A stretch of DNA of 64,000 bases from Lentisphaera profundi (GTDB lineage: Bacteria; Verrucomicrobiota; Lentisphaeria; Lentisphaerales; Lentisphaeraceae), in NCBI RefSeq assembly GCF_028728065.1, contig NZ_CP117811.1, positions 1,488,001 through 1,552,000 of the forward strand. Direction: 5' to 3'. Positions 32,842-64,000 of this stretch are shown piece after piece. The number at the start of each line of letters is the position of its first letter. Position 1 is the first letter of the stretch. Below the pieces are notes generated by a model. The model saw only the letters and a list, made by a program, of their open reading frames with translations. It had not been told where the DNA came from and made no database searches. Position numbers and translations under genes: made by a program.

Positions 32842-32904
32842 ATTATAGTACTCATGTAATAATTGAAAAGGAAAAGTGATTTAGTTAAATAATCGAACTT
32901 AGAC

Positions 32905-33765: not shown

Positions 33766-33848
33766 CTTTTTCCTTTTGTAACTTTGTTTCTTGGTGAAGG
33801 AGATGCACTGTTGAACTCTGACGTGTTAGATAGGTATGCTTCGCAGAC

Positions 33849-33931: not shown

Positions 33932-33957
33932 ATCAATTAATAATGAGTCAGGAGATT

Positions 33958-34806: not shown

Positions 34807-34946
34807 TGTTTTATTTTCCTTTTTTAGTTTAATTTTTTACTGCCAGTAATTAGTGAGTTTCACGTCAGGGTCTACAGGTACCTTTAGCCATATCATTTCT
34901 GGCAAGTTTAAGTTTTTTCTGTGGTGTTATAAATTAATTTTTAGCC

Positions 34947-35741: not shown

Positions 35742-35759
35742 CTTGTGCTCCTTTAAAAA

Positions 35760-36512: not shown

Positions 36513-36523
36513 AATTTTTTTCC

Positions 36524-37717: not shown

Positions 37718-38607
37718 GGAGTTAATCCTAATTGCTCGAGGTATTTGTGGTGACTGGCCTCATTATTTGAATTGATAGCTGGGCTGTAGTTTTTACTTTT
37801 GATGAAACCGCCATCAATGGCGAGTTCCTGGTTCCATTGATCTATGACTTCTGGGCTTAAAGCCTGCTCAGATTTCCAGATGATACTGGCATTGCCATAG
37901 TGCAGGATTCCCGTACCTGCCAGCTCTTTTTGCATGAGCTCACACCACTGCATGCTATCGCTAATTTTACAGTGAATAACGGTGAGTTCATCCTTCATGC
38001 TAAAGGGGAAAGAATAGTCGTAGGCTGTGATTGAAAGCTGATTATTCTTTGCACGCTTTGCCATTTCTTGTAAGAGGACTTCGATCTCGGTCTGTTCACC
38101 ATGAAAACTTACGTAGACTTCTTTTTGACTGTAATTGAGGTCCAGGACATCAATGGCAAGGGCCCAGGGGCTGCGGGCTAATGCCGAGCAAAAGGATAAG
38201 AGGTCTTCTAGCTCACCGTTGATTTTAACTGATTGAATTTTGTTGAGCGGGCGTAAACGCAGAACGAGATCTTTGGGCTCGAGTATTGACCAGCCGCCAT
38301 AGGCGATAGCTCGAGTAAAGTCAAAGCCAGTGACATTTTTAACTACTCGGCCGCCGATGGAGATTTCTTGACCTTTGTAAGAAATGTTCATGCCTAGGAT
38401 ATTGTCAGCCCAAGAACCGTAAATCATGGAATAGCTCGAGATGGGGCTGAGTTTGAGCATGTCTAAAAGACTGGCATCATCATCCCAGGCTAAGGGGAAA
38501 TAGAGCTGATCCTTTTCAATACTTGATTTAAGCTCAGAGAGTTTGATCTGAGCAGGGACACAAATAGACATGTCATCTGGATCATAAAAGTGCTTGAGTC
38601 GGGTCAT
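37714..38607 (-). CDS. GlcE-like FAD-binding oxidase subunit
   Basis: 297 residues from the ATG at 38607, one base after the GlcD stop and with GGAAAG upstream. A longer frame would overlap GlcD by 44 bases and is less likely. The protein is a shortened FAD-binding oxidase domain with 'IGGRVVKNVTGFDFTRA', the hallmark of GlcE, which partners GlcD and GlcF. The usual N-terminal FAD-binding motif is weak, as in GlcE proteins generally. Confidence 0.82.
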   Translation of the reverse strand: MTRLKHFYDPDDMSICVPAQIKLSELKSSIEKDQLYFPLAWDDDASLLDMLKLSPISSYSMIYGSWADNILGMNISYKGQEISIGGRVVKNVTGFDFTRAIAYGGWSILEPKDLVLRLRPLNKIQSVKINGELEDLLSFCSALARSPWALAIDVLDLNYSQKEVYVSFHGEQTEIEVLLQEMAKRAKNNQLSITAYDYSFPFSMKDELTVIHCKISDSMQWCELMQKELAGTGILHYGNASIIWKSEQALSPEVIDQWNQELAIDGGFIKSKNYSPAINSNNEASHHKYLEQLGLTP

Positions 38608-38608
38608 T

Positions 38609-46100: not shown

Positions 46101-47079
46101 AGGATTTTACCTGACCAATCTCTTTAATGGTGATTACCTGAATTGGAAGTGGCCTGCAAAACCTGAATATGGTGCGAATATGAATGGAGCCCCGTCCGGT
46201 GGTGGTGGAGAGGACTTTGGTGGCTATGTGCAAGTTACCGAGGATGGCAAAGTTTATGCACAAAGTGGTCACACGGCTTTTTGGAACCTTGAATTAAAAG
46301 GCTTTGACAAAACAGAGCGCTTAGCTGTTACCAGTGTGAAGGTGACGACTGAAGACTTCCAAAAGGCGGCGGATCTAACCATAAAAATGGCAAAGGCAAA
46401 GTATGAACCTTCTATTTACAAGATCATGAAGTACACACCTGGTGCTTATTACGCCAACCTAAATGCTGACTTTAAGGGACAAGAACAAATAAAATTCAAT
46501 AAAACTAAGCACACTCATGTGAAAGTTGCGGCATCCTATGATGACAAGAATCTTTACGTGGGCTGGCAAGTGAAAGATAAAACACCATGGGTTAACGGTG
46601 CAGAAGAGGCGCAATACATGTATGGCCGTGGTGATACTGTGGATTTACAAATTCAGGCGGCTGATTACAAGGGAAAGAAGGCCTATCAACGCCTATCTAT
46701 CGGTAACTTGAAAGGCAAAGATACAGCTGTTCTCTACCGTGAAAAATCTGCGGAGAAAAAGCCCATGTCCTTCAGTTCTGGTGTGATTACCGACTTCCCG
46801 GTTGATTATGTCGCTGTTGAAGGATCCGTAAAAGTTCAAAGTACGGTTCGTGGAGAAAACTATTGGGTACAAGCCTCCATTCCATGGTCTGTTCTAGGTA
46901 TTCAGCTCAAGAAGGGCGATAAACTTAAAGTTGACTTTGGTGTTACTTACGGCGATGCCAAAGGAACTGACACAGTACTGCGCAATCACTGGAGCAACAA
47001 AAGTACTGGATTGGTAAACGACGAGGTCTTTGAGTTAAAACTTGATCCTAAGAATTGGGGAGAATTAAATGTTCAATAA
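43198..47079 (+). CDS. giant secreted protein: CBM9-like + FlgD-Ig-like + beta-propeller + CBM9-like
   Basis: 1293 residues with a signal peptide ending VMA near residue 22. The N-terminal part (about 30-235) looks like a CBM9/DOMON carbohydrate-binding sandwich ('DGKSDDWDLS', 'DNKYLYLLGYWYD'). A FlgD-type Ig domain follows (about 285-350, 'DGYVSTVIKDKDGKIVRHL'). A long NHL-like propeller fills 360-1040, containing a calcium loop DQNGDGKEQANE near 804. A second CBM9-like domain ends the protein ('YDDKNLYVGWQVKDKTPW'). No catalytic motif is visible. It probably binds a glycan outside the cell. Its stop overlaps the next gene by 11 bases. AAAGGAAAATA precedes the ATG. Confidence 0.72.
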   Translation: MKAYQYTVMIILCLFSTQVMATPTENYGFNALPADGNIKIDGKSDDWDLSQSIFICNDVHLYAETYAMRFAAQYDNKYLYLLGYWYDKTPLNNPGQVSADHGWLGDSLQVRIMTGERKTAKVTHVTAWRGVGGGDIVTFQYGDMAVKGKKVVIKNAKLNGVLQAFGVRKDGSGYVQELTIPWELITKDKKALVKGDRLKLAAEANFTLDNGTRLTIKGNWNPDGPIDRIFTYRSLAPWGYATLADKAAAKPLDVRLGDGRTFPTIMNGKEPSIDWTGLKEEVKSDGFKNVTVNAPADGYVSTVIKDKDGKIVRHLANNQKVKKGENVLSWDVLSTPNFETLGMPIKPGTYSVHSLWHPEYEIMWRGWAGSSAQTPWENGPKTNWGGDHGSPTAIATGDKGVFLGWFKSESGRALVATDFDGKVMWRKKFGGMSSVKGLATAGDIVFVLGGPSRGKSANGAAVYKMDQSTGLYKEWAGSPAAELAIDKLSDDPQLQEATAIAAFADRFYLSFSQANKVRAYDSKSGKQLAEYDVPKPAQISCDPQGNLYVLSGGDYTLDPNGYNGIHEPAIVESQSIYKLDTTTKKATKLTFAGLKNACGIYVDKTGDVYVGIREPVNQVYVYNAKGNILKKIGQQGGRPLTGPWNQNGMRFVSGVAIDKNNQLWVCEADNHPLRFSRWDVKTGAFSKEFFGPTNYGARGAAINPEDPNKMMGISAEWELDPKTQTFKCLGVITRKPTANSVALKASNGRVYFISTTEWRSGDIDIFERLGDGDFVKRASFTYEGKRLFGQKKKIDASVPQKTHYWADQNGDGKEQANEVTTVDCILHFNPWNLHVWNDFTFYSAEKAFPLKGFTKCNAPIFDIKNPEIMPVAGVGSLNSDVMLSYSRKDWGKYNSWYTAYDRKTGEELWKYPNTFVGVQGSHKGPAFPQTGLIRGSYGPLTSIKLPAPIGNAWIFTTNVGEWHVLTEEGFYLTNLFNGDYLNWKWPAKPEYGANMNGAPSGGGGEDFGGYVQVTEDGKVYAQSGHTAFWNLELKGFDKTERLAVTSVKVTTEDFQKAADLTIKMAKAKYEPSIYKIMKYTPGAYYANLNADFKGQEQIKFNKTKHTHVKVAASYDDKNLYVGWQVKDKTPWVNGAEEAQYMYGRGDTVDLQIQAADYKGKKAYQRLSIGNLKGKDTAVLYREKSAEKKPMSFSSGVITDFPVDYVAVEGSVKVQSTVRGENYWVQASIPWSVLGIQLKKGDKLKVDFGVTYGDAKGTDTVLRNHWSNKSTGLVNDEVFELKLDPKNWGELNVQ

Positions 47080-50000
47080 AAAAATCATATTAGCAACGTC
47101 CTTAAGTTTGGCGTTTTGGGGATGTCAGAGTCCTGATAAAAAAACTCAAATTAAGCTTTCTGAATCCCCTTCTGTAGAAATGCCCAGTAAGGATACTAAT
47201 CAAGCACCTATAGCGATTCCACTCGTTCTTGAAAAAGACAGTCATGTGACCATGGTGATTGAAGATCAACAGGGAACACGTGTACGCAACATACTCAAAG
47301 ATCAGTTTTTTAAAGCGGGTTCTCACTGGGTGTATTGGGATGGTATGGATGATCATGGCCGTGCCAATATTGGGCCCCATGGGAACTATACCCAAACGGG
47401 TCGCCTAGTTGATCCAGGGCAATACACGGTCCGTACCTTGATTCATGACAAGATTGACATCACCTATGAGTTTACACCCTATAGTCCTACAAACCCGAGC
47501 TGGCGAAATGCCGATGCCTCGGGCCAATGGTTGGCGGATCACACCCCACCAAGTTCTGTTCTCTATCTACCATCCAGTCAGCAAATGTTGATTGGCAGTT
47601 CATTAGCAGAAGGAGCACATGGCATTGTGTGGACGGATTTATCTGGTAAAAAGATTCGTGGTGCCCAAGGCATTGGCGGTGGCTGGGCCGGCGCAGTGCG
47701 TTTAACGCTGGATAAAGCCGGGCAGGACAAAAATGTTTTAGCCTACGGCTTAGGTGCCTCAAGACACGGTGAGGTTTCTATTGTTGCCATTGGCGAAGAG
47801 GCAAATAAAACACTTTTTAACCGCAAAGAAAAAATTAAACACCATAAAAGTCATTACATCGTGGATTACCCTGTTGCGGGCTTAGCGGTTTATAAAAAAA
47901 TGGCGGTGATTTCTTATCCATTGCGTAAAGAACTTGCCTTTTTTGATGTCTCTAGTGGCAAAAATCTGAGTCAGCCAAACTTTGTTCATAAAATGGAAGA
48001 TCCCCGTGGCCTCGCCTTTGACGCCAAGGGTAATTTATTTGTTTTAGATGCCAAGCAGTTGACTCAATTCAAAGTCGATGGTGAAAAATTGGTTCAAGTA
48101 AACGTACTCAATACGAAAGATTTATCAGATCCACAAGAGTTGATCATTGATGAGAATGGCGATTTTTATATTTCAGATCACGGTGATGTTCATCAGGTCA
48201 AAGTATTCAATGCCCAAGGAAAATTGCTTCGCACAATTGGTACTTCCGGTAAACCGAGTGTCGGTAAATACGACGAAACAAAAATGCATTACCCCATGGG
48301 CTTGACCCTTACACCTTCTGGTGAACTTTGGGTTGCTGAAGAAGATTACCAACCCAAGCGTGTGAGCATTTGGTCAAAAGAAGGTACTTTTAAAAAGGCT
48401 TTCTACGGTTCTACCGAATATGGTGGAGGCGGAAAAATTGATCCTTTAGATAAGACGCGCTTCTACTATTTCGGTATGGAGTTTAAACTCGATTGGGAAA
48501 AGGGAACAGATAAAATAACAAATATTTTCTATCGTCGAGATAACCCAAACAATATCCCATTCTCAAACTCTAAAGGGGATTTAGCGGGTAACCCTGAGAC
48601 TCCAGTTTATATTAATGGTCGTCAATATATGACCAATACCTATACGGGACATCCGACTATGGGGCCGGTTACGGCTGCGATTTGGTTGATGGAAGATGGT
48701 ATTGCGAAGCCTGTAGCGGCACTTGGGCAAGCCAATTATCAGTCCTTATTCAAAACAGAAGCTTATAAAAATAAAATACCCGCTGGGCATGACATTACTG
48801 TGCCAACGAATCAGCAATGGACATACGATCGCACGAAGCCCTATGAAAATTCAGTGATTTATGCCTGGTCTGATTTGAATGATGACCAAAAGATCCAAGT
48901 GAATGAGGTGCAATTCAAAGCAGGTAAAGTGGGTGCCTTGAATCAAGATGAGCAACTTAATTTTTACACAGCTGATGCTCTTAAAATTGCCGTTTCGGAC
49001 ATCGACGACAAAGGTGTGCCACATTATGATTTAAAAGGCGCGCAACGCTTTAGTCCATGGGGGATTCCTATCCCCTATACGGTCCTTATTCCAGGCAGTA
49101 ATGGTGATGTGGCTTTTAATGGCCACGTTGAGTTATTGCCCAACGGCAAACCCTATCACTCCGTTAGTGGCATCACAGCTGATGGTCGTCGTTGGTATTA
49201 CCCAAATCAATGGGGTGGCTTACATGCTTCTCAGAGTTATCCGATTAATCGCCAACCCAAGCCTGGTGACATCATTGGTACAACAAAAGTTATTGGAACT
49301 ACCTTCAAGGTCAGTCAGGATAAAGAAGAACTTTGGGCCTTAAATGCCAATTCAGGTCAAATTTATCTTTTCACAACGGATGGCTTGTTTGTGACCGCAC
49401 TCTTTAAACACGGTTATTTTGCCAAGCCCAACCCTTTAAGAGCCGAGCGTGGCATCGTCATGGATGATTATACCAGTGATGGTGAAGGCTTTTGGCAAAC
49501 CATTACCAAAACATCCGATGGGAATGTCTATGTTCAAGCAATGAACCACACGAGTTCGATTAATCGTGTCAATGGTTTGAATAGCTTGCAGCGCGTACCT
49601 TTACAGACAATCAATGTAAGTAAAACAGAATTAGATGATTGTTTGGCTTGGTTCTCCAAAGCAGAAGCACAACGCCAGGCAGCTTTGGGTAAAAAATCCG
49701 CAAAAGTAGCGATTCGTCAAGATGAGATTGTTTTGGATGGCAATTTAGATGATTGGGCTGGAGCCGATTGGCTGGCGATTGATGATCGTACTTGGGGGAC
49801 CATGCGTCTATCAGGGGACAAGCTATACCTCGCCTATAAAACCCTTCACAAAAACTTAGTGAAGAACTCGGGTGGCGATCCTTGGCAAGGTATGTTCAAG
49901 ACCGGCGGAGCTTTAGATCTGATGATTTCGACTTCTGGAAATGACAAGCGTCATCCTAAATCAGGGGACCAACGTCTTTTAATGAGTGAGGTCAATGGCA

Positions 50001-51067
50001 AGCTCAGAGCTGTTCATTACGAGCAGAAATCAAAGCGCCAAGGTCACGCGAGTGAAATTGCATCGCCAAATCGTACCGTGAAATTTGATTATATTGCTGA
50101 TGTGAGTGAACACATTCAATGGGTACAAGGCAAAACTAAGGTCGCTCATCACGATACCAATGTGGTTTTTGGTACAAAAGTTCAGCTTCGCAATGGTGAT
50201 GCATACGAAGTGGCAGTTCCACTGTCGCTCTTGGCCTTGAATCCACAGGAACAAAAAATTACGGGTGATATCGGTGTGCTCTTAGGTAATGGCAATACCA
50301 CAACACGTCGTCTCTATTGGAGTAATAAAAATACCGTGATGCTCTTTGATGCACCGGAAGAATCTCTTTTAAAACCAGCCTTATGGGGCGAGCTTAAACT
50401 GAAAGTAGAAAAGAAATTGAGTTTTGAAGAGATGCTTATCGAACGCGGCGATGCGGTGGACTTATACACTGGTGTGGCGGGTAACTTAGATATAAAGAAT
50501 AATCAAGCGCAAATTCTATGGTCGGGTAAAGGGACCCTGAGAGACAGTAAGATAGGCCGTTCGGGCTTCGTGATCTTCCGCCCTTACGCCAAGGACTGGT
50601 TTAGCGATGATGTCCCATTAGTAAAACTAAGCGACAAGATTGACTTTAAGTATCATAAAATTGGACGTTTTAATGACGGTCTTTATGCTGGCAGTAAAGT
50701 CAAAAAGATCAACATGAGTTTAGATGGTAAATCACTTGCAGAGCCAAAGGGAATTCTCGGTGGTTGCTTGTGGAATCGACAAAAGAAAGCCCAAGTAGGC
50801 TATTGGGATTTTGAGGCGAAAGATGATAAGCTCCATCAAATGACCATCATCATTGATCAATCCGGTCAACAAAACTTTAGCTTAACAAATGCCAAGGGTG
50901 AAGAACGTGAATTGATCCAACTTAAAGGTGATGAAAGCCTCTGTGTGATTCAGTTTAACTTTTCGGGGAAAGTACGTTTGAACTTAAAGCAAGCGCCATA
51001 CACAGATCAAGAGATTGCTGAGAAAAAGCGAAAGCCAGCAGTAATCACAGCCATCTTTGTGGATTAA
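47069..51067 (+). CDS. giant lipoprotein: FlgD-Ig-like + beta-propeller + CBM9-like + novel C-terminal domain
   Basis: 1332 residues with a lipoprotein signal (Cys19 after AFWG). A FlgD-type domain (about 50-135, 'VTMVIEDQQGTRVRNILK'), an NHL-like propeller (to about 880) with a calcium-loop-like DLNDDQKIQVNE near 602, and a CBM9-like sandwich near 890-1120 ('DGNLDDWAG') follow. Its architecture parallels the gene before it, so the pair seem paralogous. The last 200 residues form an unrecognised domain ('GFVIFRPYAKDWF', 'VGYWDFEAKDD') that is also made as a separate protein by the next gene. It is likely surface-anchored and glycan-binding; no catalytic residues are evident. Confidence 0.72.
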   Translation: MFNKKIILATSLSLAFWGCQSPDKKTQIKLSESPSVEMPSKDTNQAPIAIPLVLEKDSHVTMVIEDQQGTRVRNILKDQFFKAGSHWVYWDGMDDHGRANIGPHGNYTQTGRLVDPGQYTVRTLIHDKIDITYEFTPYSPTNPSWRNADASGQWLADHTPPSSVLYLPSSQQMLIGSSLAEGAHGIVWTDLSGKKIRGAQGIGGGWAGAVRLTLDKAGQDKNVLAYGLGASRHGEVSIVAIGEEANKTLFNRKEKIKHHKSHYIVDYPVAGLAVYKKMAVISYPLRKELAFFDVSSGKNLSQPNFVHKMEDPRGLAFDAKGNLFVLDAKQLTQFKVDGEKLVQVNVLNTKDLSDPQELIIDENGDFYISDHGDVHQVKVFNAQGKLLRTIGTSGKPSVGKYDETKMHYPMGLTLTPSGELWVAEEDYQPKRVSIWSKEGTFKKAFYGSTEYGGGGKIDPLDKTRFYYFGMEFKLDWEKGTDKITNIFYRRDNPNNIPFSNSKGDLAGNPETPVYINGRQYMTNTYTGHPTMGPVTAAIWLMEDGIAKPVAALGQANYQSLFKTEAYKNKIPAGHDITVPTNQQWTYDRTKPYENSVIYAWSDLNDDQKIQVNEVQFKAGKVGALNQDEQLNFYTADALKIAVSDIDDKGVPHYDLKGAQRFSPWGIPIPYTVLIPGSNGDVAFNGHVELLPNGKPYHSVSGITADGRRWYYPNQWGGLHASQSYPINRQPKPGDIIGTTKVIGTTFKVSQDKEELWALNANSGQIYLFTTDGLFVTALFKHGYFAKPNPLRAERGIVMDDYTSDGEGFWQTITKTSDGNVYVQAMNHTSSINRVNGLNSLQRVPLQTINVSKTELDDCLAWFSKAEAQRQAALGKKSAKVAIRQDEIVLDGNLDDWAGADWLAIDDRTWGTMRLSGDKLYLAYKTLHKNLVKNSGGDPWQGMFKTGGALDLMISTSGNDKRHPKSGDQRLLMSEVNGKLRAVHYEQKSKRQGHASEIASPNRTVKFDYIADVSEHIQWVQGKTKVAHHDTNVVFGTKVQLRNGDAYEVAVPLSLLALNPQEQKITGDIGVLLGNGNTTTRRLYWSNKNTVMLFDAPEESLLKPALWGELKLKVEKKLSFEEMLIERGDAVDLYTGVAGNLDIKNNQAQILWSGKGTLRDSKIGRSGFVIFRPYAKDWFSDDVPLVKLSDKIDFKYHKIGRFNDGLYAGSKVKKINMSLDGKSLAEPKGILGGCLWNRQKKAQVGYWDFEAKDDKLHQMTIIIDQSGQQNFSLTNAKGEERELIQLKGDESLCVIQFNFSGKVRLNLKQAPYTDQEIAEKKRKPAVITAIFVD

Positions 51068-51951: not shown

Positions 51952-53952
51952 ATGAAACTTAACAATACTTCCCTCAGTCACATACGTGGTTTTAACTACC
52001 AACCTTCCTTTGCAGGTCACGGTATTCCCCGTTGGTTGGATCGTTTTAATGCTGCAACAATTGAAGAGGAACTGCGCCGAGGGATTGATTACTTTCCTTG
52101 GTACAACACAACGCGAATTTGGTTGTCGATAGATGCCTGGTGGGACAATCGTGAACTCTTTTTGCGTAACCTGCAAAAAGAAATCGAGATCAATCGCAAA
52201 CTTGGCCTAAAAGTTATTCCTGTCTTATTCAATGGTTGCCCAGGTATTCCCGTTTTTGGATTTTTTACTTCAACCGATGCGGATCGCATCTTAAAGTGCA
52301 AACATCCCGATGAAGGTGGTCACAACTTGCGTGTGCTATATTTGGATTACGTCAAGGATATTGCTGAATTGTATGCAAAGGATGATATCATTGCTGCATG
52401 GGATTTGTGTAATGAACCAGGGCTGGAATACAAAGAAGAAGGCAACTTTGTTCGTGAAGCGATCTTCCTGCTACTTGAAAAATCAGCCGAAGAACTGCGT
52501 ACACATGGTGTTCAGGCGCCTATTGGAGTCGGAAACTTCGGGCCCGTTCGTGATGATGAGCGTGTGCTTGACTTTGTGGATTGTATTATGACGCATCGTT
52601 ATTACGTGCCTCATTGTATGACCCTTGAGAAATTCCGTGAGAATGTAAAACAAACCGTTGATTTTTGCAATGAGCACAATCTACCTTGGTGTGTAACTGA
52701 ATGTTCTTGGGGTGCTTGGGATGATGAAGAACGTGCGAAGAACATCCCTGGCTTAAGTGTTTTCCTTGAAGTTGGTGCTGGTATCGTTCCTTATATTCTT
52801 TCTGAAAGTCCCTGTATGGATGCCCATGGCAAAGAAGCCGGTGTACATTATGGTTGGGGTGCTCCAGAAGATCTTTGCTTTATCCGCAGAGATGGTCAGC
52901 TTCGCAAAGGTCATGAAGTGATCAACGATGTAGTGGCTCAGTACCCAATCGAAAATAATCCTTTTGAAACATCAGCGGATGCAAATGCACCCTACGATAG
53001 CTTTCGACCTGGTAAAGTGTGGAATGATGTAGATGGCAAACCCATCCAAGCCCACGGTGGTGGTGTCATTAAAATCGAGGATACCTATTACTGGTATGGT
53101 GAGAATAAAGACGCTGAAACAACGGTCAATTCCTTGGGAACAGCACGAACTCCGCTAACTGGTGTATCCTGTTATTCGTCCAAAGACCTCTACAACTGGA
53201 AGTATGAGGGCTTGGCTCTAGAGGGTGTAAACGAAGAGGGCCATGAATTGCATCCACGCAATGTTTTAGAGCGCCCAAAAGTTCTTTATAATGATGCGAC
53301 GAGTAAATACGTCATGTGGTTCCACTTGGATGCCGAAGATTACTCTTGGGCAAAGGGTGGGGTGGCCATTTCTGATTCACCAACGGGTCCTTTTGAATAC
53401 CTAGGCAGTATGCAACCTAACGATAGCATGCTCCGCGATATGACCTTGTTTAAAGATGATGATGGTAAAGGCTATCTGATTTACACATCAGAAAATAATT
53501 CAACGATGCATATTTCTTTGCTGGATGAAAGCTTTACCAAACCCGTGGGTGAACCAAATCGAATCTTAATCAACATGGTTCGCGAAGCTCCCGCAATCTT
53601 TAAGAAAAATGGCTATTATTATCTCTTCACATCCGCTTGTACGGGTTGGAACGATAACCGTGCATGGTTGACCACTGCAGAAGACCTCATGGGCGATTGG
53701 TTTACCCTACGTGGTGGTGAATGCCTAAAGGGAAATCCCGAACACCAGGCTACGACTTTTGAATCACAAAGTACCTTTGCATTAGTGGTTCAAAATGAGG
53801 AAAAAGAAGATCAGTTCATTTTTATGAGCGATCGTTGGAACCAAGATGATTTAGGCGATTCTCGTTACCTTTGGTTGCCCGTCGAGTTCGATGAGAAAAA
53901 TAATCGTTTTGCTCATGTGGTTTATCACGATGAGTGGAAATTAAATAAGTAG
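51952..53952 (+). CDS. two-domain glycosidase: GH5-like + GH43-like
   Basis: 666 residues without signal peptide. Residues 1-340 have a clan GH-A barrel with 'AAWDLCNEPG' (acid/base E155) and 'WCVTECSWG' (nucleophile E250), like GH5. Residues from about 352 start a GH43-type five-bladed propeller ('VWNDVDGKPIQAHGGG', 'YYWYGENKDAE') with acidic catalytic-type residues, similar to exo-beta-1,3-galactanase-type GH43 branches. The two domains should cut different linkages of one glycan. The lack of a signal suggests the fusion works on imported oligosaccharides. AGGTAAGAATA stands before the ATG. Confidence 0.75.
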   Translation: MKLNNTSLSHIRGFNYQPSFAGHGIPRWLDRFNAATIEEELRRGIDYFPWYNTTRIWLSIDAWWDNRELFLRNLQKEIEINRKLGLKVIPVLFNGCPGIPVFGFFTSTDADRILKCKHPDEGGHNLRVLYLDYVKDIAELYAKDDIIAAWDLCNEPGLEYKEEGNFVREAIFLLLEKSAEELRTHGVQAPIGVGNFGPVRDDERVLDFVDCIMTHRYYVPHCMTLEKFRENVKQTVDFCNEHNLPWCVTECSWGAWDDEERAKNIPGLSVFLEVGAGIVPYILSESPCMDAHGKEAGVHYGWGAPEDLCFIRRDGQLRKGHEVINDVVAQYPIENNPFETSADANAPYDSFRPGKVWNDVDGKPIQAHGGGVIKIEDTYYWYGENKDAETTVNSLGTARTPLTGVSCYSSKDLYNWKYEGLALEGVNEEGHELHPRNVLERPKVLYNDATSKYVMWFHLDAEDYSWAKGGVAISDSPTGPFEYLGSMQPNDSMLRDMTLFKDDDGKGYLIYTSENNSTMHISLLDESFTKPVGEPNRILINMVREAPAIFKKNGYYYLFTSACTGWNDNRAWLTTAEDLMGDWFTLRGGECLKGNPEHQATTFESQSTFALVVQNEEKEDQFIFMSDRWNQDDLGDSRYLWLPVEFDEKNNRFAHVVYHDEWKLNK

Positions 53953-53959
53953 GTTAATT

Positions 53960-55468
53960 ATGTCTAAACCCAATGTTTTATGGTTGATGAGTGATCAGCA
54001 CAATGCCAATTGTACTGGCTATGCAGGTAACCCCAATGTAAAAACGCCCCATCTCGATGACTTGGCCAATGAGGGTGTAGAATTTGAACAGGGCTTTTGT
54101 AATAACCCGATCTGTAGTCCTTCGCGCTTAAGTTTTATTACCGGCTTATACACCAATAATCACGGTTATTTGGGCAATAGAAATAATGACGTTACGACTC
54201 CTAACCCCAATACTCTCTCAAGCCTCTTTCGACGTTTTGGTTATCAAACGGGACTCGTTGGTAAGAGTCACATGATTACGGGTTGGGACAAAGAGGGCTT
54301 TGAATACATTCGTTACACGGATATGTGTGATGCAGATGATAATGATCCCCATACTTGTCATTACTTCGATTACTTAGCACAGCAAGGTCTAGCAGATCAT
54401 TACGAAGAGGGCACACCAAAGGAAGGGCAACAAACCCTTGATGGTTCACAGCCCGCATCTTTGCCTTATAAACACTCGATTGAGCACTACACGGGCAATA
54501 AGAGTTTGGAGTTTTTGGAAAACCGCGATCAGGATCGTCCCTTCTTTTTAAAGATGAGCTTTCAACGTCCCCATGACCCTATTACGCCGGCTCCAGAAGA
54601 TTTCGATATGTACAATCCAGACGATATCGTTTTGCCAAAGAGCATTAGTGACTTATTTGAGAATAAGTTTGCTGGTAAACCACAATTCATGCAAGATTAT
54701 GTGGCCAATCCTGGCGACTACCCCATGTGTGTGGCGGATGAAGCTAAACTCAAACGTGCCTTGGCCAGTTATTATGCTTTGATTACCAAGGTTGATGAAG
54801 AAATTGGTCGCGTCATTGATCACCTCAAAGAAACGGGTGAGTATGATAATACCATCATTTTTTATACAGCTGATCACGGTGATTTTGCTGGTGAGCATGG
54901 ACTCTTTTTAAAGAATCTTGGCATCTATGAATCGATCCATAAAATTCCATTCTTACTCAAATGGCCTGGTGGTCCAACAGGGGTAAAAAACAAAGAATTA
55001 GTTGAATCAGTTGATTGGTACACTACCCTATGTGATTTGTGCAATATCCAGGCGCCAGACAATGTGGATGGCCGCAGTTTAGTTCCTGTAGCTAAGGGTG
55101 AAGCCGAAGGGAGTGATGCGATTATTTGCGAACATCACGCTTGTACGGCTATACGCACTAAGCAATACCGACTGGTTTATTACCGTGAGACGGGTGAGGG
55201 TGAGCTTTACGATCGCGGCAATGATCCAGATGAATTACACAACTTATGGTCCCATGAAGACTACCAAAGTATTCGCATGGATTTGATGCAAGAGGTACTT
55301 AATTACCACATGCGTTATCAGCGCAAAACCTACAATGAACTGGATCAAATTATTAATAAAAAAAGAAAGCATACCTTTTCCGCACTGCTGCAGAAAGAGA
55401 AGGCTTACTACAGTGATCTAGTAAAAGTCTATGAAACAAAAAAACCTTGGCCGCCTCAGGCTAAATAA
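53960..55468 (+). CDS. S1-type sulfatase
   Basis: 502 residues. The N-terminal metal block 'WLMSDQHNANCTG', the formylglycine motif C52-S-P-S-R with 'LSFITGLYTNNHG' and the second metal block 'FYTADHGDFAGEHG' define a type I sulfatase. No signal peptide is visible, so it may act on imported oligosaccharides in the cytoplasm. The window's maturase at 27206 is a candidate activator. It removes sulfate esters from the glycan attacked by the GH enzymes around it. The 7-base gap to the previous gene supports cotranscription. Confidence 0.9.
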   Translation: MSKPNVLWLMSDQHNANCTGYAGNPNVKTPHLDDLANEGVEFEQGFCNNPICSPSRLSFITGLYTNNHGYLGNRNNDVTTPNPNTLSSLFRRFGYQTGLVGKSHMITGWDKEGFEYIRYTDMCDADDNDPHTCHYFDYLAQQGLADHYEEGTPKEGQQTLDGSQPASLPYKHSIEHYTGNKSLEFLENRDQDRPFFLKMSFQRPHDPITPAPEDFDMYNPDDIVLPKSISDLFENKFAGKPQFMQDYVANPGDYPMCVADEAKLKRALASYYALITKVDEEIGRVIDHLKETGEYDNTIIFYTADHGDFAGEHGLFLKNLGIYESIHKIPFLLKWPGGPTGVKNKELVESVDWYTTLCDLCNIQAPDNVDGRSLVPVAKGEAEGSDAIICEHHACTAIRTKQYRLVYYRETGEGELYDRGNDPDELHNLWSHEDYQSIRMDLMQEVLNYHMRYQRKTYNELDQIINKKRKHTFSALLQKEKAYYSDLVKVYETKKPWPPQAK

Positions 55469-55482
55469 AAGAGTTAAATAAG

Positions 55483-57492
55483 ATGGATTTTACTTACAAA
55501 GATGGAGCTTTTTCCTTAGTGGATCAAGAGGGCAATGGTTGGAGAAATTTACAATTTGAGCTCAATGGAGTCTTAAGTTCTCAGCTAAATGAATTATTCA
55601 ATACTCTATCTGATCAAGGTGGCACTGTGCTGTTGTCGGGTTCTGGCTATCAGGAAGAAATTAATTTTACGCTTGATAAGAAAAGCAATAGCTTGGTCTT
55701 GAGCCGCAGTATCATCAATACTTCTGAGCAAGCTTTGGAACTGCAATCAATCCGAGATGGAATCTTGGCGAGTGACGCTGAACTGTGCTACACAAGACCG
55801 ATAAAAGTGATTGATTATTATCGAGTGCGTTACTTCCATTCATCCAATATTAAAACGGAAAAATATCCCCGCTTTCGCGTAGAGCATCCCTACCTCAAGT
55901 GTATTCCCTATGAACCAGTACACATCAATAGTGACGAAGCGAATCACTTTCCGGTTTTTGCCGTAGAGTTTGATCGCGAGCATTCAGTTGTTTTAGTCCA
56001 AGGGGATTTAAATCAAGTTAAGTTTGAGCGCTCGTGGAACTTGGGACTAGAAGGTGAGTCCGATAGTAAGTTTATCAAAACTTATGAAGGCTTACAAAAG
56101 TACACATTGAGTGATGCCTTTAGTTTAGCCGCAGGTGAGAGAGTTGAAGTCTCTCGAGTCTTTTATCAATTAAAGTACGATACTCACCCCCAATATGCCT
56201 TCGATGATTATGTAGCGACACTTAACCAGCATCATAACTTTCAAGGTAAGAATTCAAAGATGTTGCGCGAAGGCGTATTTTGTACTTGGAATTATGGTAC
56301 TTTTGGCAATATCACAGAGGACTTGATTCTAAATCGAGCCAAGGCCATGGCTGAAAATATGCCTAATTGTACTCATTTCTTGATCGATGATGGCTACCAG
56401 GCATTGCGCAATACCTATAATAATCCCAATGCTGGTATCGATTCATTTTACCCTGTACCAGTTGAGGGCTACGATAAAGAAAAGTTCCCCAACGGTATGA
56501 AAGTCGTGGCCGATGGCATTCGTGACTTAGGTTTAAAGCCCTGTATTTGGTTGTCGCCAAAAGTTTACTTGTCCTCACCCTTAGCTAAGGAAAAACCTGA
56601 GTGGTTACAGAAAGATAAAGATGGTTCAGTTCGAATTCTTGGTGAATCGAGTTTTCTTGATTTATCCCACCCTGAAGCCAGAGATTTCTATTTAAAAGTC
56701 CTTGATGCGCTCTTTGTTCAGTGGGGTTTTGAGGGTGTGAAATACGATTTTATGACTCAGTGGTTCTTGAAAGAAGATAGCCGCTTTGGCCATAAAAGTG
56801 GTATAGAATGGCGTGATTTTGCCTTTAGCGAAATCCGCAAACGCATTGGCGATGATGGCTTTTTTATGACTTGTATTGCCTTTAGTGCAGGCAATCCATT
56901 CCCCGGTTTAAATGCAGATTCCTATCGTTGTGGTTTCGATATCCACGATGGAACCTGGAGCGAACAAGTTAGGGCTTGCTCGGGTACAATGGCTCAAACC
57001 ATGATCAAAGGCAAAGACACCTTCCTCCTCAATATGGATAGCCTTGGCTTTGGTGACAATCCGGAAAACGAACAGTTTTTCCGTCTCAATTGGTGCTACA
57101 TTACCCAGGGAATCTTGGAGTTCGGAGGCAAATTAGAAGAGCATAGCCCAGAGCAGTTTGCTATTTTTAACAAGATCTTAGAAAATGCTGATCGTGGCAA
57201 CAAGGTTAATGTACTGGATGACAAAGCCTTCACGGGTGAGCCCTTACCAGAGATCTTGCAGGTGCGCTACGAAGATGACGGTCCAATGAAACAAGCTGGT
57301 GTAAAGCAACACATTTCCTTCTTTAATTGGTCTAATGAAACAAAACTTATTTCCGTATCTTTAGAAAAAGCAGATCTAAATGGAAGCGAAACCTTCAGCG
57401 ACTTCTGGAGTGATCAGGACATGCAAGTCAATGGTAATTTTCTTTCCGTCGAACTTACTCCACATTCCTCAAAACTTATTCAGGTAAAATAA
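55483..57492 (+). CDS. GH36-like alpha-galactosidase
   Basis: 669 residues. The N-terminal sandwich is followed by a TIM barrel with 'THFLIDDGYQ', 'GLKPCIWLSPKV', the nucleophile in 'GVKYDFMTQWF' (Asp near residue 423) and the acid/base in 'RCGFDIHDGTW' (near 487). This is the GH36/GH27 clan-D pattern, but the sequence is divergent from the classic family (no KWD). It may act on alpha-galactosides or related alpha-sugars. No signal peptide, so cytoplasmic. The last base of its TAA is the first base of the next ATG. Confidence 0.8.
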   Translation: MDFTYKDGAFSLVDQEGNGWRNLQFELNGVLSSQLNELFNTLSDQGGTVLLSGSGYQEEINFTLDKKSNSLVLSRSIINTSEQALELQSIRDGILASDAELCYTRPIKVIDYYRVRYFHSSNIKTEKYPRFRVEHPYLKCIPYEPVHINSDEANHFPVFAVEFDREHSVVLVQGDLNQVKFERSWNLGLEGESDSKFIKTYEGLQKYTLSDAFSLAAGERVEVSRVFYQLKYDTHPQYAFDDYVATLNQHHNFQGKNSKMLREGVFCTWNYGTFGNITEDLILNRAKAMAENMPNCTHFLIDDGYQALRNTYNNPNAGIDSFYPVPVEGYDKEKFPNGMKVVADGIRDLGLKPCIWLSPKVYLSSPLAKEKPEWLQKDKDGSVRILGESSFLDLSHPEARDFYLKVLDALFVQWGFEGVKYDFMTQWFLKEDSRFGHKSGIEWRDFAFSEIRKRIGDDGFFMTCIAFSAGNPFPGLNADSYRCGFDIHDGTWSEQVRACSGTMAQTMIKGKDTFLLNMDSLGFGDNPENEQFFRLNWCYITQGILEFGGKLEEHSPEQFAIFNKILENADRGNKVNVLDDKAFTGEPLPEILQVRYEDDGPMKQAGVKQHISFFNWSNETKLISVSLEKADLNGSETFSDFWSDQDMQVNGNFLSVELTPHSSKLIQVK

Positions 57493-59066
57493 TGACCCCT
57501 CTTATTATGGACATGGTTCACCACAATCCAGGTGAAGCCCTTTTTGAAACACCCTTTAATGAGGCGGATTACATAGCTGAAATTGGCTATAACTCCAAGG
57601 CCTATTTTTTGTTTGAGTCTCCTAGTTTAGCGATTGATTGGCGCAGTGTGGATGTGGATGTATTTCCTCAGGGATCTGAGTCAGAGAAATGGTTAAAAGC
57701 AAAACGAGAAAGCATTCTTGCGCAACACGCAAAATGTCGTGCTGCGGGCTTGGCTATTTATGCTCAAGCGGACATGGTGCTCTTTCCCAAAAGCCTCATT
57801 CAAGCCTACGGCATAGAAAAAGAATTTGGTGATCCAAAAAATCCTCTTGTGGTTGATTTGATTAAGAAGCAGATTGCCGAATCATTTGAACAATTTCCCG
57901 ATTTAGATGGTTTTCTCTTTCGTATTGGCGAAACTTATTTACACGATGCGCCTCATCATCAAGGCGCCATTAAGGATAAAGACAACACCCAAGAAACCAT
58001 CATTCCTTTGATCAATTTGTTACGCGAAGAAATTTGCGTAAAGCACAAGAAAAAATTGATTTTTAGGTCTTGGCTAAGCTTTGATCGTGACCCCGAGCAA
58101 TACGCTCTGATTAATCAAGAAGTTGAACCCCATGAGCACTTAACTCTAGCCGTTAAACACTGTGAAGATGATTTTCACCGTGGTACGGCTTTTAGCCGAA
58201 TAATCGGGCAGGGGCGCCACCCCCAGATCATTGAAGTTCAGTGTTCTCGCGAGTATGAGGGCAAGGCTGCTCACCCCAATTATATTGCCGCAGGGGTGAT
58301 CAATGGTTTTGAAGAAAATCTCAATCAGGGTTTAGATATCTACTCTCTTAAAACTTTTGTGGATCAGAAGCCAGAGCTTTATGCAGGGGTTTGGACCTGG
58401 TGCCGTGGTGGTGGTTGGAATGGGCCCTTCGCAGCTAATAAGCTGTGGTACGAACTCAATGCCTGGGTTATTGCCACTTGGGCCCAAGATACCAGCCAAA
58501 GTGAAGAACAGGTCTTTGAGCGTTATTGCAAGGAAAAACTCAATTTAGACCAGGCGTCCAGCCAGCATTTTAGAAAGCTTTCTTTATTGAGTTTAGACGG
58601 GGTCATTCGCATGCGAAACACCCTGGAGTGTGACGTGGACTTGTGGTGGGCCAGAGATATGGGCTTTGGTTGGCCTAAGTACATTAAGGACGATCAAGCG
58701 ACCATTGAAAAGTGCCTAGGATTAAAAGATGAAGCCGTAGCAATTTGGCAGGAAATGTGTTCGCTAGCCGATCAAATTTCTTGGGCAGATAATGAAATTG
58801 CGGACTTCGCAAAAGGCTCTGTGAACTATGGCTTGGGCGTGGCGATGATTTATCGTTCGCTCTTTTATACTGATGCAGCTCTACGCAATGAAGATCCCGA
58901 AGCCATTGTTCAGGGCATTGCAGATTATGATCAAGCTTGGGATTTTTACGAATCATTACCTAGTAAGTTCAAAAATTTATCTACTCAGTATGAGAAAGAT
59001 TATTGTTTACACTTAGACCCCGCCGAAAATGTAATCCAGAAACTTAAAAAGAAATACAATGTTTAA
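57492..59066 (+). CDS. candidate alpha-glucuronidase, distant GH67 relative
   Basis: 524 residues. No usual GH67 N-terminal domain, but the barrel lines up with GH67 alpha-glucuronidases: 'LDGFLFRIGETY' carries E147 at the place of the acid (family E292), 'LAVKHCEDDFHRG' carries D227 (D365) and 'IEVQCSREYEGK' carries E254 (E393). The spacings are 80 and 27 residues, against 73 and 28 in the reference Cellvibrio enzyme, from memory. 'YAGVWTWCRGGGWNGPF' resembles the GH67 block VAGVANTG..RNWTGH. It would remove glucuronic acid side groups. UxaC encoded nearby would use the product. The frame overlaps both neighbours by a few bases. Confidence 0.6.
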   Translation: MTPLIMDMVHHNPGEALFETPFNEADYIAEIGYNSKAYFLFESPSLAIDWRSVDVDVFPQGSESEKWLKAKRESILAQHAKCRAAGLAIYAQADMVLFPKSLIQAYGIEKEFGDPKNPLVVDLIKKQIAESFEQFPDLDGFLFRIGETYLHDAPHHQGAIKDKDNTQETIIPLINLLREEICVKHKKKLIFRSWLSFDRDPEQYALINQEVEPHEHLTLAVKHCEDDFHRGTAFSRIIGQGRHPQIIEVQCSREYEGKAAHPNYIAAGVINGFEENLNQGLDIYSLKTFVDQKPELYAGVWTWCRGGGWNGPFAANKLWYELNAWVIATWAQDTSQSEEQVFERYCKEKLNLDQASSQHFRKLSLLSLDGVIRMRNTLECDVDLWWARDMGFGWPKYIKDDQATIEKCLGLKDEAVAIWQEMCSLADQISWADNEIADFAKGSVNYGLGVAMIYRSLFYTDAALRNEDPEAIVQGIADYDQAWDFYESLPSKFKNLSTQYEKDYCLHLDPAENVIQKLKKKYNV

Positions 59067-59847
59067 GCTCTACGAAAAAATGGATCTTTGGCCGGGTTCT
59101 CCACAGAAAGCGACTTTGCAAAATTTCGCTCTTGAAAATGGTGAAAACTTACCAGCTTTCTTGATTTTACCCGGTGGAGGTTATCAGCGTTGTGCCAAGC
59201 ACGAAGGGGCTCCCATAGCCGCTTGGCTCAATAGCTTGGGCATCAGTGCATTTGTCTTGGAATATTCTGTGGCACCGTCTCGCTATCCTCAGCCCTTGAT
59301 GGATGCTCGACGTGCCATGCAGTTCCTGCGTTTTCACGCCGAAGAATTAAGGATAGATGCCCAGCGCTTGGGGGTGATGGGCTTCTCGGCTGGAGGACAC
59401 CTGGCCGCTAGTTTGAGCAACCTCTATTCAGAAGTCAACCAAGATTGTGATGATGAATTGGAGAAGGTCAGCGCTAGACCGGACTTGAGCGTTTTGTGTT
59501 ACCCCGTAATTTCTTGGGGAGAATTTGCTCACCTGGGTTCAAAAGAGAATTTATTGGGCCAGCAAGCCAGTGAGCAATTAGTGGCAAAAACCTCCATGGA
59601 AAATGCGGTTCACGCAAAAACTCCTCCAAGTTTTATTTGGCATACGGTAGAAGATGCAACCGTGCCTGTTGAAAATGCCTACCTCTATGGCATGGCTCTA
59701 CAAAAACATAAAATTCGTCATGAACTCCATGTTTATCCAGATGGTCGTCACGGTTTGGGCTTAGCCAAAGATCTAGCTCGAAGCAGTAATCAAGCCAGTC
59801 AATGGTGCCAAGCCTGCGAAAAATTCCTCTACAAAGAAGGGTTTTGA
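59059..59847 (+). CDS. alpha/beta-hydrolase, acetyl-xylan-esterase-like
   Basis: 262 residues of the BD-FAE/PF20434-like esterase fold. The oxyanion motif is 'LPGGGYQRCA', the nucleophile elbow 'MGFSAGGHLA', the acid in 'EDATVPVENA' and the His in 'PDGRHGLGLA', in the right order. No signal peptide. It probably deacetylates sugar oligomers in the cytoplasm. The ATG overlaps the previous gene by 8 bases, and it is the last gene before the strong terminator. Confidence 0.85.
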   Translation: MFKLYEKMDLWPGSPQKATLQNFALENGENLPAFLILPGGGYQRCAKHEGAPIAAWLNSLGISAFVLEYSVAPSRYPQPLMDARRAMQFLRFHAEELRIDAQRLGVMGFSAGGHLAASLSNLYSEVNQDCDDELEKVSARPDLSVLCYPVISWGEFAHLGSKENLLGQQASEQLVAKTSMENAVHAKTPPSFIWHTVEDATVPVENAYLYGMALQKHKIRHELHVYPDGRHGLGLAKDLARSSNQASQWCQACEKFLYKEGF

Positions 59848-59886: not shown

Positions 59887-61290
59887 CTAAAGATTAAAAT
59901 CGAAGTAATTGGCAGCGTTGTTGTAGGAGATGTTGGCAATCATGGGGCCGACTAATTTGAGGTCGGCTGGGACTAGGCCTTTTTCCATATCTTTACCAAG
60001 AATATTACACAGGATGCGGCGGAAGTATTCGTGGCGAGTGTAGCTCAGGAATGAGCGACTATCGGTGAGCATTCCCACGAACTGGGATAGGGAGCCAAGT
60101 TGTGAGAGAACTTCGATTTGATTTTCCATGCCATCTTTTTGATCGAGGAACCACCAACCTGAACCAAACTGCATTTTGCCCGCAGCTGAACCACCTTGGA
60201 AATTGCCAATCATTGTGCCAATCACGTGGTTATCACCGGGATTGAGGTTGTAGATGATGGATTTGGCCAATTGATCACTGGAATCCAAACGATCAAAGTA
60301 GCGACTCATTGCCAAGGCCGTATTCGGTGTGCCAATGGAGTCAAAACCCGTGTCGGGCCCAAGTTGTTTATACATTCGGGTATTGTTGTTGCGGATAGCG
60401 CCATAATGAAATTGCTGTACCCAGCCCTTTTCGTGATTCCACAGACCAAAATGATACATCATGCAAGATTTGAATTGCAGGTCTTCCACTTCACTAACTG
60501 TTTGGCCAGAACGGACTTTATCAAAGATTTTTGCGATGTCCGCATCGCTGTATTCGCTAGCGTAGAATTCATTAATGCCGTGATCGCTTAAGCGGCAGCC
60601 ATTATCATGAAAGTAGTCTTGGCGAATTTTTAAAGCTTTGAGGTAATCGTCAAAGCTATTGATTTGGAAATCGGTGATCTCTTGGAGTTGAGCATACCAC
60701 TCAGTAAAGACTTGGCTTTGATCCACTGCCATGGCTTTGTCAGGGCGCCATGTAGGGAGAACTTTGACTTGAAATTGATCGGCAGTAATTTGTTTGTGCC
60801 AACGCAAATCATCAATGGGATCATCTGTTGTACAGACAAGCTTCACTTTGCTCTTTACCATTAGTTGACGTGCGGAAAAGTCATCTGCTTGAACAACTTT
60901 GTTGGCCTCGTTCCAAATTTCCTCGGCTGTATCAGGTCCTAGAAGTGTATCGATATTGAAGTAGCGCTTGAGTTCTAATTGCGTCCAATGATAGAGAGGG
61001 TTGCGCAGGAGTTTGGGCATGCAATCGGCAAAGGCTTTAAATTTTTCCCAATCACTGGCATCACCAGTGCAAAAGCGTTCATCCACGCCATTAGTGCGCA
61101 TGGCCCGCCATTTATAATGGTCGCCATAAAGCCAAATTTGAGTGATGTTTTCCCAGCGTCTATCCTCGGCAATTTCTTGGGGAATCAAATGGCAGTGGTA
61201 GTCAATGATGGGCTGATCTTTTGAAAACTGGTGATAAAGGTCTTTGGCGTACTGATTTTCCAGTACGAAGTCGTCGTGAATAAAGTTCAT
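59887..61290 (-). CDS. uxaC: glucuronate isomerase
   Basis: 467 residues, the normal length. 'IIDYHCHLIPQEIAEDRRWENI' has the HxH metal site, followed by 'TQIWLYGDHYKWRAMRTNGV', 'LRNPLYHWTQLELKRYF', 'TTDDPIDDLRWH' and 'MLTDSRSFLSYTRHEYFRR', all landmark blocks of UxaC (amidohydrolase superfamily). It converts D-glucuronate to D-fructuronate in the cytoplasm. It follows the small ORF and the GH52 xylosidase gene on the same strand. AGGAACATTAT precedes the ATG. Pairing with the GH67-like gene suggests use of glucuronate stripped from xylan- or fucoidan-like chains. Confidence 0.93.
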   Translation of the reverse strand: MNFIHDDFVLENQYAKDLYHQFSKDQPIIDYHCHLIPQEIAEDRRWENITQIWLYGDHYKWRAMRTNGVDERFCTGDASDWEKFKAFADCMPKLLRNPLYHWTQLELKRYFNIDTLLGPDTAEEIWNEANKVVQADDFSARQLMVKSKVKLVCTTDDPIDDLRWHKQITADQFQVKVLPTWRPDKAMAVDQSQVFTEWYAQLQEITDFQINSFDDYLKALKIRQDYFHDNGCRLSDHGINEFYASEYSDADIAKIFDKVRSGQTVSEVEDLQFKSCMMYHFGLWNHEKGWVQQFHYGAIRNNNTRMYKQLGPDTGFDSIGTPNTALAMSRYFDRLDSSDQLAKSIIYNLNPGDNHVIGTMIGNFQGGSAAGKMQFGSGWWFLDQKDGMENQIEVLSQLGSLSQFVGMLTDSRSFLSYTRHEYFRRILCNILGKDMEKGLVPADLKLVGPMIANISYNNAANYFDFNL

Positions 61291-61491: not shown

Positions 61492-63591
61492 TTAATGCTT
61501 AGCGCTTTCCTTTAACCAAAGAATGTTGCTGACTATTCTTGGGTAGTAGAGGCTGCCAATGGCTTTGCCGGAAGTGAATTGATCTGAGCAGGCGTGATAT
61601 TTGGCGCCTTCCCGTTGCCAGCGTGCGTGAGCTAAATCAGCTTGTGCCGAGGCCTCTTTAAGATCAATCTTTAGTATTTCACGAGCGACGTATTGGCAAA
61701 TGGAGATCTTGCTCATCCAAGAGTTATCCGCAGTTGAGGATAGCTTCCAGGCCCCGTCGGGGTAGAGGCAGGTATCTGTATTGTGAATATTGTTAAAGTG
61801 GCGTTTGAGCACCTTAATGTAATCACCAAAAGGACCATTTTCGGAGCAGTATTCTTTGGCGCCAAACTCCCATGGGTAAACCAAGGCCTCGATGGCTGGA
61901 ATGATAGCACTCTTGTTGTTATTTTCTAGAACGGCGGGGATAAAGCCTAGGTCTTCATCATAGCCTGCGCAAAGGGCCTTGGCCGTTAATTCAGCAGCCG
62001 AGAAGGCTTCTTCACTCACTTTTGTATCGAGATCTTTAAAGAGCTTGTGAATGATGAGGTAAGATGCCCAGGCTTTGCCAGCCAAATAAATATTGTTGCG
62101 CGATTGACCGAGTGAATGATCTAGTGAATCATAGGTGCTTATTTCTCCGCCACCCTTAGTCATAGAACTTTCAAAAGACATCAGTCCATTGCGTTTTTCG
62201 GGGTCGGGATTGTCGCGGTTGAGTAAGCTGGTTAAACAATCTTGGAAGATGCCTCGGTGACGAGTAAAGAAGTCCGCATCTTTGTTTTGGCCAAGGTAGA
62301 CCCCAGCAGTCAATACCCAATTACAGAGTTGCTCATAAGTCATGAATGAAAAGCACTTGCGATCCAGTCCAGAAGTCTCGTAACTGGAGAATGGTTCAGG
62401 ACTGAATTGATTGGCAACCCCCATGTCGTGGGCAAAAGAGACGCCGCCAGGATAGAGCTTTTCGGGGTTCTCAGGTGAAAAGACTTCATCGTAGTAACGG
62501 TAGTGAGAAACAAAGTTTTCTAGAATGTTTTTAACCGTCCAAGGATTAAATTTAAGCTCAAAGAAAAGCATATCGATGGTTAGGTCAAAGGTGTTCATCA
62601 TCAGATATTCACCTTCATTGACCACCCATAGAGGCTTGTCTGATTCAATGAGAAATTCTGTAGAGCCATAGTAGCTTCTAGTTGCGTGGGCGATGAGGAA
62701 TTTTTGTTCATCGTTCAGGTCTGTACGCGAGCTCAGTTCTTCGTCGCGCTTTGCGGCTAGCGCAAAGTAACGATCTTGTTCCGACATGGCATAGTTGATG
62801 ACATGTTTAATATCGGCAAAGAGCTTGGTGTAGTAGTATTTACTCGTACGATTAAAAGTGGCTTTGTTTTCTAAATAATAAGCTACGCACAGAACTAATT
62901 CTTTTTGTGCTCCAGCTGGGACTGTGATTTCTAGACCACAGGTTTGACCCAATAAGAAATGAGAACGACTATGATCGCGGTCCAAGGCTGTATCGTGGGT
63001 GAAGTCCATGAAGGATTTTGCTTCTTGATTTGTGGTCGCCACAGCTAGTTGATCACGGCTCACACCGCCTATGATTTGTCGATTATTGTCATTATCTAAA
63101 GCAGTCCATCTCGTGTCTGGACTAAGGGCAAAGAAGCCTTGCCAGTCTTCTTGACTTTGATTGTTGAAAGTCAGTCGCACTAGGGTGGCAGGGCAGCTTG
63201 CAAAACGCATTTCATCATCACTTGCTTTTGCGGGGTCAGGGATGCTATCAAAGGGAGAGATGACCTCCATTTGCACGCCCGGCGCCGAGAATTTATCGGT
63301 GGCCCAGAGGTATTCGCGTTGCATATTCTCTTTTGAAAAAATCACATCGGGAAGAGGCTCGGCATTTTCGTCACTCACATAGCGTTCTTTTTCACTTTCG
63401 AGTTTATCAAAGAAAGGGAAATAATGGTATTGGCCAGATGCAGTGCGGTAGCCTACTAGAGTGGCGCCCTCTGCAACGGATCCTTTTTCTGATACGGCAC
63501 CACTATTGGCGTGGTGCATACCTAGGGTAAAAGAGCTGTGAGCTCCCATGGGGGAGTGTTGAGCATGAAAGTCGGGATTTTCAGGTATCAT
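61492..63591 (-). CDS. GH52 beta-xylosidase
   Basis: 699 residues, close to the family's ~705. '[17 protein letters not shown]' is the GH52 N-terminal hallmark. E328 in '[15 protein letters not shown]' corresponds to the nucleophile (E335 in the Geobacillus enzyme) and D488 in '[12 protein letters not shown]' to the acid/base (D495); the spacing of 160 is identical. It releases xylose from the ends of xylo-oligosaccharides. No signal peptide, so cytoplasmic. Its ATG overlaps the GH95 stop by 11 bases, so the two genes are cotranscribed. Confidence 0.93.
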
Positions 63592-64000
63592 AGTGATATG
63601 TTTCTTTGGCTTTTAGTTTGATGGTCTGTTTTTGGCCATTGAAAGTTACGATGACTTCTTGATCAAAGTCCGAAAGGAGTTGGAAGCTTGTTACTTTTTC
63701 ATCTTGCCACTCTATACAGACTTGGACTGACCCACGAGCCTTGAGGCCAGAGACTCGACCTGTGGCCCATTGCTTAGGTAGACAGGGCAGTAAATCGATG
63801 CGTCCTTGATGGGATTGTAGGAGCATTTCTGCTACCGCAGCAGTACCGCCAAAGTTGCCATCAATTTGGAAAGGTGGGTGATCGTCAAAGAGGTTGGGTA
63901 GGGTGGAATGACTTTGCAGGGCGTGGAAGTTTTCATAAGCCTTTTGCGCATTGCGCAAACGAGCAAAGAAATTGATGATCCAAGCGCGACTCCAGCCCGT
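63581..64000 (-). CDS. GH95 alpha-L-fucosidase, C-terminal part only (cut by window edge)
   Basis: The frame is open to the last base, so most of the gene lies outside. The visible 139 codons read '[15 protein letters not shown]', '[21 protein letters not shown]' and '[21 protein letters not shown]', the standard C-terminal blocks of GH95 (alpha-1,2-L-fucosidase, some alpha-L-galactosidases). It removes fucose or L-galactose from glycans. The association with the deoxysugar oxidation operon at 33-40 kb supports fucose, though the two are 24 kb apart. Confidence 0.9.

Follow-up and report, generated by a model that had tools for sequence, protein, structure and literature searches.

Gene content of the locus

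The window (i.e., the whole stretch of 64,000 nucleotides of Lentisphaera profundi that was analysed) ends with a series of genes related to carbohydrate degradation, the coordinates of which are collected in Table 1. The gene considered here, hereafter the target gene, is an intact ORF starting with ATG. The TAA of the preceding gene overlaps this ATG (TAATG) and the 3' end shares 8 bases with the downstream esterase gene, thus the melibiase/GH31-like gene, the target gene and the esterase gene look translationally coupled. Nothing at the N-terminus of the target protein resembles a signal peptide, and the frame stays open upstream for just 18 codons; the protein looks cytoplasmic, unlike several relatives, the N-terminus of which is signal-peptide-like. 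To judge from their N-termini, the products of the sugar-cleaving genes of the locus look cytoplasmic too.

The uxaC, GH52 and acetyl-esterase-like genes, named as neighbours in a preliminary description of this DNA, are real (Pfam matches in Table 1). The esterase scores 182.6 bits against NF041902, i.e., under the cut-off of 550. The product of the upstream gene (669 aa) has modest Pfam scores for both Melibiase and GH31 and, like the target, lacks a clear family assignment. On visual inspection, the approximately 340 leading residues of the GH43 fusion resemble a GH5-type barrel. Past the end of the window, the GH95 gene is followed by an ABC transporter, which includes a binding protein, and by two esterase genes, one of the CE7 acetylxylan-esterase type and the other of the GDSL type.

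Two other parts of the window must be mentioned. Positions 29957-40069 contain SDR dehydrogenases, an FAA hydrolase, an SMP-30 lactonase and an FAD oxidase; the part at 32905-40069, with two of the SDR dehydrogenases and also an Fe-S/CCG protein, looks like an oxidative pathway for the breakdown of deoxysugars (fucose/rhamnose). At positions 43198-51067 there is a pair of unusually long ORFs, of 1293 and 1332 aa, in which NHL, PQQ and FlgD-Ig repeats occur.

The genome (5.46 Mb) has at least 150 sulfatase matches, which suggests that the source organism is a specialist for sulfated polysaccharides, and about eight GH29 genes. Neither GH67 nor GH115 was found in this genome, which would thus have no other route for the release of alpha-glucuronate, except through GH4 or an unknown family.

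Table 1. Position in the window of the genes, domains and residues discussed in the text
Feature	Position	Strand	Basis or remark
Fusion of a leading stretch without Pfam match and a C-terminal GH43 domain	51952..53952	+	PF04616, 2.5e-21, residues 372-604
Sulfatase without signal peptide	53960..55468	+	PF00884, 1e-48
Melibiase/GH31-like barrel enzyme, upstream of target	55483..57492	+	PF02065, 38.6 bits; PF01055, 35.4 bits
Target gene, putative GH67-related alpha-uronidase, 524 aa	57492..59066	+	ORF, Pfam, A1 alignment, AlphaFold2 model, structure search
(beta/alpha)8 barrel, residues 1-315	57492..58436	+	AlphaFold2 model, DSSP
R144	57921..57923	+	end of strand 4; aligned to GlcA67A K288
E147, proposed general acid	57930..57932	+	two residues past strand 4; GlcA67A position 291
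R192	58065..58067	+	strand 5; aligned to GlcA67A R325
K222	58155..58157	+	end of strand 6; aligned to GlcA67A K360
D227, proposed base	58170..58172	+	loop after strand 6; aligned to GlcA67A D365
E254, proposed base	58251..58253	+	loop after strand 7; aligned to GlcA67A E393
Helical C-terminal region, residues 318-524	58443..59063	+	AlphaFold2 model, structure alignment
BD-FAE-type alpha/beta-hydrolase esterase, downstream	59059..59847	+	PF20434, 1.1e-20
UxaC, uronate isomerase	59887..61290	-	PF02614, 1.5e-203
GH52, beta-xylosidase family	61492..63591	-	PF03512, 1.5e-130
GH95, C-terminal end only; gene runs past the window	63584..64000	-	sequence beyond the window, Pfam

Extent of the target family

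The alignment of the target family (A1) comprises 27 full-length sequences and has 54 invariant positions. The target is 32-53% identical to the other A1 sequences and is placed inside A1 on the tree, next to proteins of 45-52% identity. Weaker matches were used to build a sister family, A2, made of proteins of about 575 aa from Verrucomicrobiota (e.g., LFLIDGISPFFRGY..INWSKIPF). The A1 and A2 profiles match each other with a probability of 99.95% (hhalign, E 7e-38), and on the tree the two are split by a long branch with full support.

Of 289 genomes searched within the phylum, 42 contain matches to the target family, the distant A2 included. When GTDB species genomes were scanned, 19 loci were obtained, which belong to Verrucomicrobiota, Bacteroidota (Bacteroides, Dysgonomonas, Paludibacter, Arcticibacter, Muribaculaceae) and Bacillota (Ructibacterium). 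The earlier suggestion of a new subgroup or family of glucuronidases is borne out in part: A1 is widespread, and it is a separate, unnamed family and not strict GH67, the members of which are putative glucuronidases. No paper describing it was found in the literature searched, which consisted mostly of papers free of subscription; the family may correspond to an already existing unnamed CAZy cluster.

Sequence relationship with GH67

The sole notable Pfam match of the target is GH67M, with 17.6 bits, i.e., under the curated gathering cut-off of 23.5. Six of the 27 A1 members match GH67M (best E 5e-6), and three homologues exceed the cut-off. The GH67 N-terminal domain, already described as missing, has no Pfam match in the target and is absent across A1. 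The target has no match in NCBIfam and PHROGs.

The A1 profile was compared with a reference profile of 12 true GH67 proteins (A3). The score is 68.8 (E 1.3e-7) over 298 columns, which span the barrel and the beginning of the C-terminal domain. Sixty column-shuffled GH67 profiles score at most 25.2 against A1 and reversed profiles score 17.4-19.2; the likeness to GH67 therefore exceeds chance, in agreement with what had been proposed. Strands 4, 5, 6 and 7 of the separately predicted structure are in register with this profile alignment. Other families were considered as closest kin and set aside: (i) GH115 (21.1), GH84 (16.5) and GH20 (22.4), the hhalign scores of which lie inside the shuffled range; (ii) DUF4838 (PF16126), for which the target has no Pfam match and the score of 38.0, over 98 columns, is well under that of GH67.

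Neither the target protein nor the A1 profile retrieved anything relevant in sequence searches of the PDB; GH67 and GH138 chains were both missed by the profile. The nuclear-receptor matches obtained there with the A2 profile concern a helical region and were judged to be chance matches.

Predicted structure and structural neighbours

The AlphaFold2 model of the target, built with the A1 alignment, has a pLDDT of 91.8 and a pTM of 0.92. The eight strands of the barrel (DSSP) are residues 4-9, 35-38, 88-93, 140-145, 188-193, 217-222, 245-250 and 297-305. Of the structures compared with it, those of GH67 are the best match. In Foldseek against the PDB, GH67 1h41 is first (E 3.8e-12). In VIA-align 2, the top match is GH67 1mqr (Z 21.0, rmsd 3.5, 409 residues), model residues 1-477 being aligned onto residues 141-679 of the chain; GH67 chains overall give Z 19.8-21.0, rmsd 3.3-3.9 and 391-429 residues. 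In the GH67 crystal structures, the counterpart of residue 1 of the model is residue 141 or 151, and the C-terminal region of the target aligns with the GH67 helical C-terminal domain up to about residue 477-506. The target thus lacks the N-terminal domain of GH67 but retains the helical C-terminal one. The A2 model (pLDDT 79.5) also has GH67 as top structural match (Z 22.0). GH115 is not among the best 50 VIA-align matches, a fact that excludes nothing.

GH138 comes directly behind GH67, both in Foldseek (6hze, E 1.0e-11) and in VIA-align 2 (6hze/6hzf/6hzg, Z 18.7-18.9, rmsd 4.1), and its 456-462 aligned residues exceed, at 462, those obtained with GH67. GH138 is an alpha-galacturonidase family with a retaining mechanism. 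The target could accordingly be read as a GH138-like retaining enzyme that cuts galacturonic acid from rhamnose or fucose, both deoxysugars, and UxaC would accept galacturonate too. Against this reading, the profile and Pfam signals favour GH67. The comparison with GH138 covers structure; a search of the relatives' genomes with the A1 profile, at E up to 10, brought up no GH138 sequence that could be added to it. The GH84 structures align as well (Z up to 18.7), with an rmsd of about 8.

Proposed catalytic residues and basic residues

The numbering of Cellvibrio GlcA67A was fixed by means of the E292A chain in the alignment. The preliminary description had placed three catalytic acids in the blocks LDGFLFRIGE (E147), CEDDFHRG (D227) and SREYEGK (E254). 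They are where it put them and, like R144, R192 and K222, are invariant in the 27 aligned sequences. Their spacing (80 and 27 residues) is indeed near that of E292, D365 and E393 in GlcA67A (73 and 28). The claim that all three acids are in place holds exactly for the two proposed bases, D227 and E254. As for E147, its place in the profile alignment is one residue before the GH67 acid E292, i.e., the block is similar and the register inexact. The GH67 catalytic acid sits on a mobile loop (PMC3879575), thus the shift of one residue is not disqualifying.

In the model, strands 4-7 carry the six residues at their C-terminal ends, which form the catalytic face of such barrels. K288, R325 and K360 of GlcA67A presumably hold the sugar carboxylate in GH67 structures. 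An acidic pair formed by D and E past strands 6 and 7 is the GH67 pattern, which also argues against a GH138-like enzyme. The A2 equivalents of the six residues are all invariant.

It is very unlikely that the target is a barrel hydrolase with another activity (e.g., hexosaminidase-like) or a catalytically dead paralogue. The alignment with GH84 structures would suit the former, although the GH84 and GH20 profile scores stay within the range of shuffled profiles; as for the latter, acids and basic residues that are invariant over 27 sequences are not what is expected from a decaying enzyme.

Gene neighbourhoods of the relatives

At least one of GH29, GH95, GH141-like and GH78 is found near 16 of the 33 target-family loci (the window counted); SASA acetylesterases occur at nine of these loci and sulfatases at five. 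Around the 20 GH67 genes taken from this phylum for comparison, GH29 is found at two loci and GH95, GH141-like and GH78 at none, a contrast that is only suggestive since the seeds of the neighbourhood panel come mostly from target-family loci and the comparison is therefore biased. The association with GH78, GH95 and sulfatases is strongest for the closest homologues (L081, L083, L084). GH2 genes are also often near the relatives, together with GH78, GH95 and GH141-like genes. The gene order of the window (UxaC, GH52, melibiase-like, esterase) was found around no relative.

The mixture of GH78, GH95, GH141-like and GH2 also occurs in pectin (RG-II) loci and fits a GH138-like enzyme; nearby sulfatases, on the other hand, suit pectin poorly. 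With the profile and residue evidence given above, the GH138-like reading is unlikely, although it is the main source of uncertainty for the function proposed below.

The same neighbourhoods bear on the possibility that the target is simply a divergent GH67, i.e., an intracellular xylan alpha-glucuronidase in the role of AguA beside the GH52 beta-xylosidase. The GH67M match, the homologues above the cut-off, the proximity of GH52, GH43, UxaC, BD-FAE and CE7 genes and the seven GH10 matches of the genome are consistent with it. The xylan framing of the preliminary description thus suits this genome, but the relatives have genes of fucosidase-type families (GH29, GH95, GH141-like), GH78 and sulfatases as neighbours more often than xylan genes. 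Moreover, the whole family lacks the N-terminal domain, the target itself scores under the GH67M cut-off, its acid is displaced by one residue, and at locus L091 a true GH67 gene adjoins a member of the target family. A divergent GH67 is consequently rather improbable.

At the 13 A2 loci the carbohydrate enzymes of the panel are absent, except sulfatases at one. The A2 genes at L016-L030 (e.g., L017:1144-2856) keep the acids and the basic residues, and carbohydrate-degrading genes are not close. At six of the 13 A2 loci a homologous gene lies nearby (e.g., L096:14941-17334), which by eye is PHP/glycosyltransferase-like and thus hints that A2 may take part in glycan synthesis or turnover.

Proposed function

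Sequence, model and context together make it reasonably likely that the target belongs to an uncharacterised GH67-related family and is an exo-acting alpha-uronidase on short imported oligosaccharides, the sugar released being most probably D-glucuronic acid. Three points weigh against this proposal: (i) GH138 is nearly equal to GH67 as a structural match; (ii) E147 is off register; (iii) GH67M is under its cut-off.

Working in the GH67 manner, the enzyme would cut a terminal alpha-linked uronic acid from short oligosaccharides within the cell. The basic set R144/R192/K222 would hold the sugar carboxylate, E147 would protonate the leaving group, and D227 and/or E254 would activate water, in a single displacement with inversion as in GH67. 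UxaC, which would accept the expected product, would then isomerise the released uronate. The esterases, the sulfatase, GH52, GH43 and GH95 would strip the remaining substituents and sugars from a substrate that may contain xylose and/or fucose, together with acetyl and sulfate groups. The analysis establishes the ORF, its relationship to GH67, the predicted fold and the invariant residues; activity, inversion, the sugar and the substrate are inferred.

A more tentative extension can be put forward, namely that the family is a new GH family related to GH67 and devoid of its N-terminal domain, which releases alpha-glucuronic acid from fucose-rich sulfated (fucoidan-type) polysaccharides and lies outside GH4, GH67 and GH115. 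To our knowledge, all reported alpha-glucuronidases fall in these three families. If true, this would be a fourth alpha-glucuronidase family, widespread in both Verrucomicrobiota and Bacteroidota, the genes of which often adjoin those of fucosidases and sulfatases; it would provide the debranching step that is missing for algal or plant glycans bearing uronic acids, and it would inform on the divergence of GH67, GH115 and GH138.

Comparison with known systems

GH115 is distantly related to GH67 in structure but differs from it in the catalytic apparatus (PMC3879575). The GH115 alpha-glucuronidases (PF15979) have no profile similarity with the target family (score 21.1). GH138 (BP0997) is the structural runner-up and was compared by structure only; its target is rhamnogalacturonan II according to the PDB title. 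A2 has in common with the target family the six equivalent residues and GH67 as closest structure, and is set apart by long branches.

GH67 (Cellvibrio GlcA67A, 1gqi/1h41; Geobacillus AguA, 1k9d/1mqq/1mqr) gives the best profile and structure match, at about 15% identity, and has the barrel and the helical C-terminal domain in common with the target. The equivalents of D365/E393 and K288/R325/K360 are in register, whereas the acid comes one residue earlier in the target. GH67 differs by its N-terminal domain, by the GH67M cut-off that the target does not reach, and by its neighbourhoods, those of the target's relatives being of the fucose/sulfate type. In Geobacillus, an ABC importer, an intracellular alpha-glucuronidase and GH52 are found together. 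The present locus is similar, with an ABC transporter, a cytoplasmic-looking candidate uronidase and GH52.
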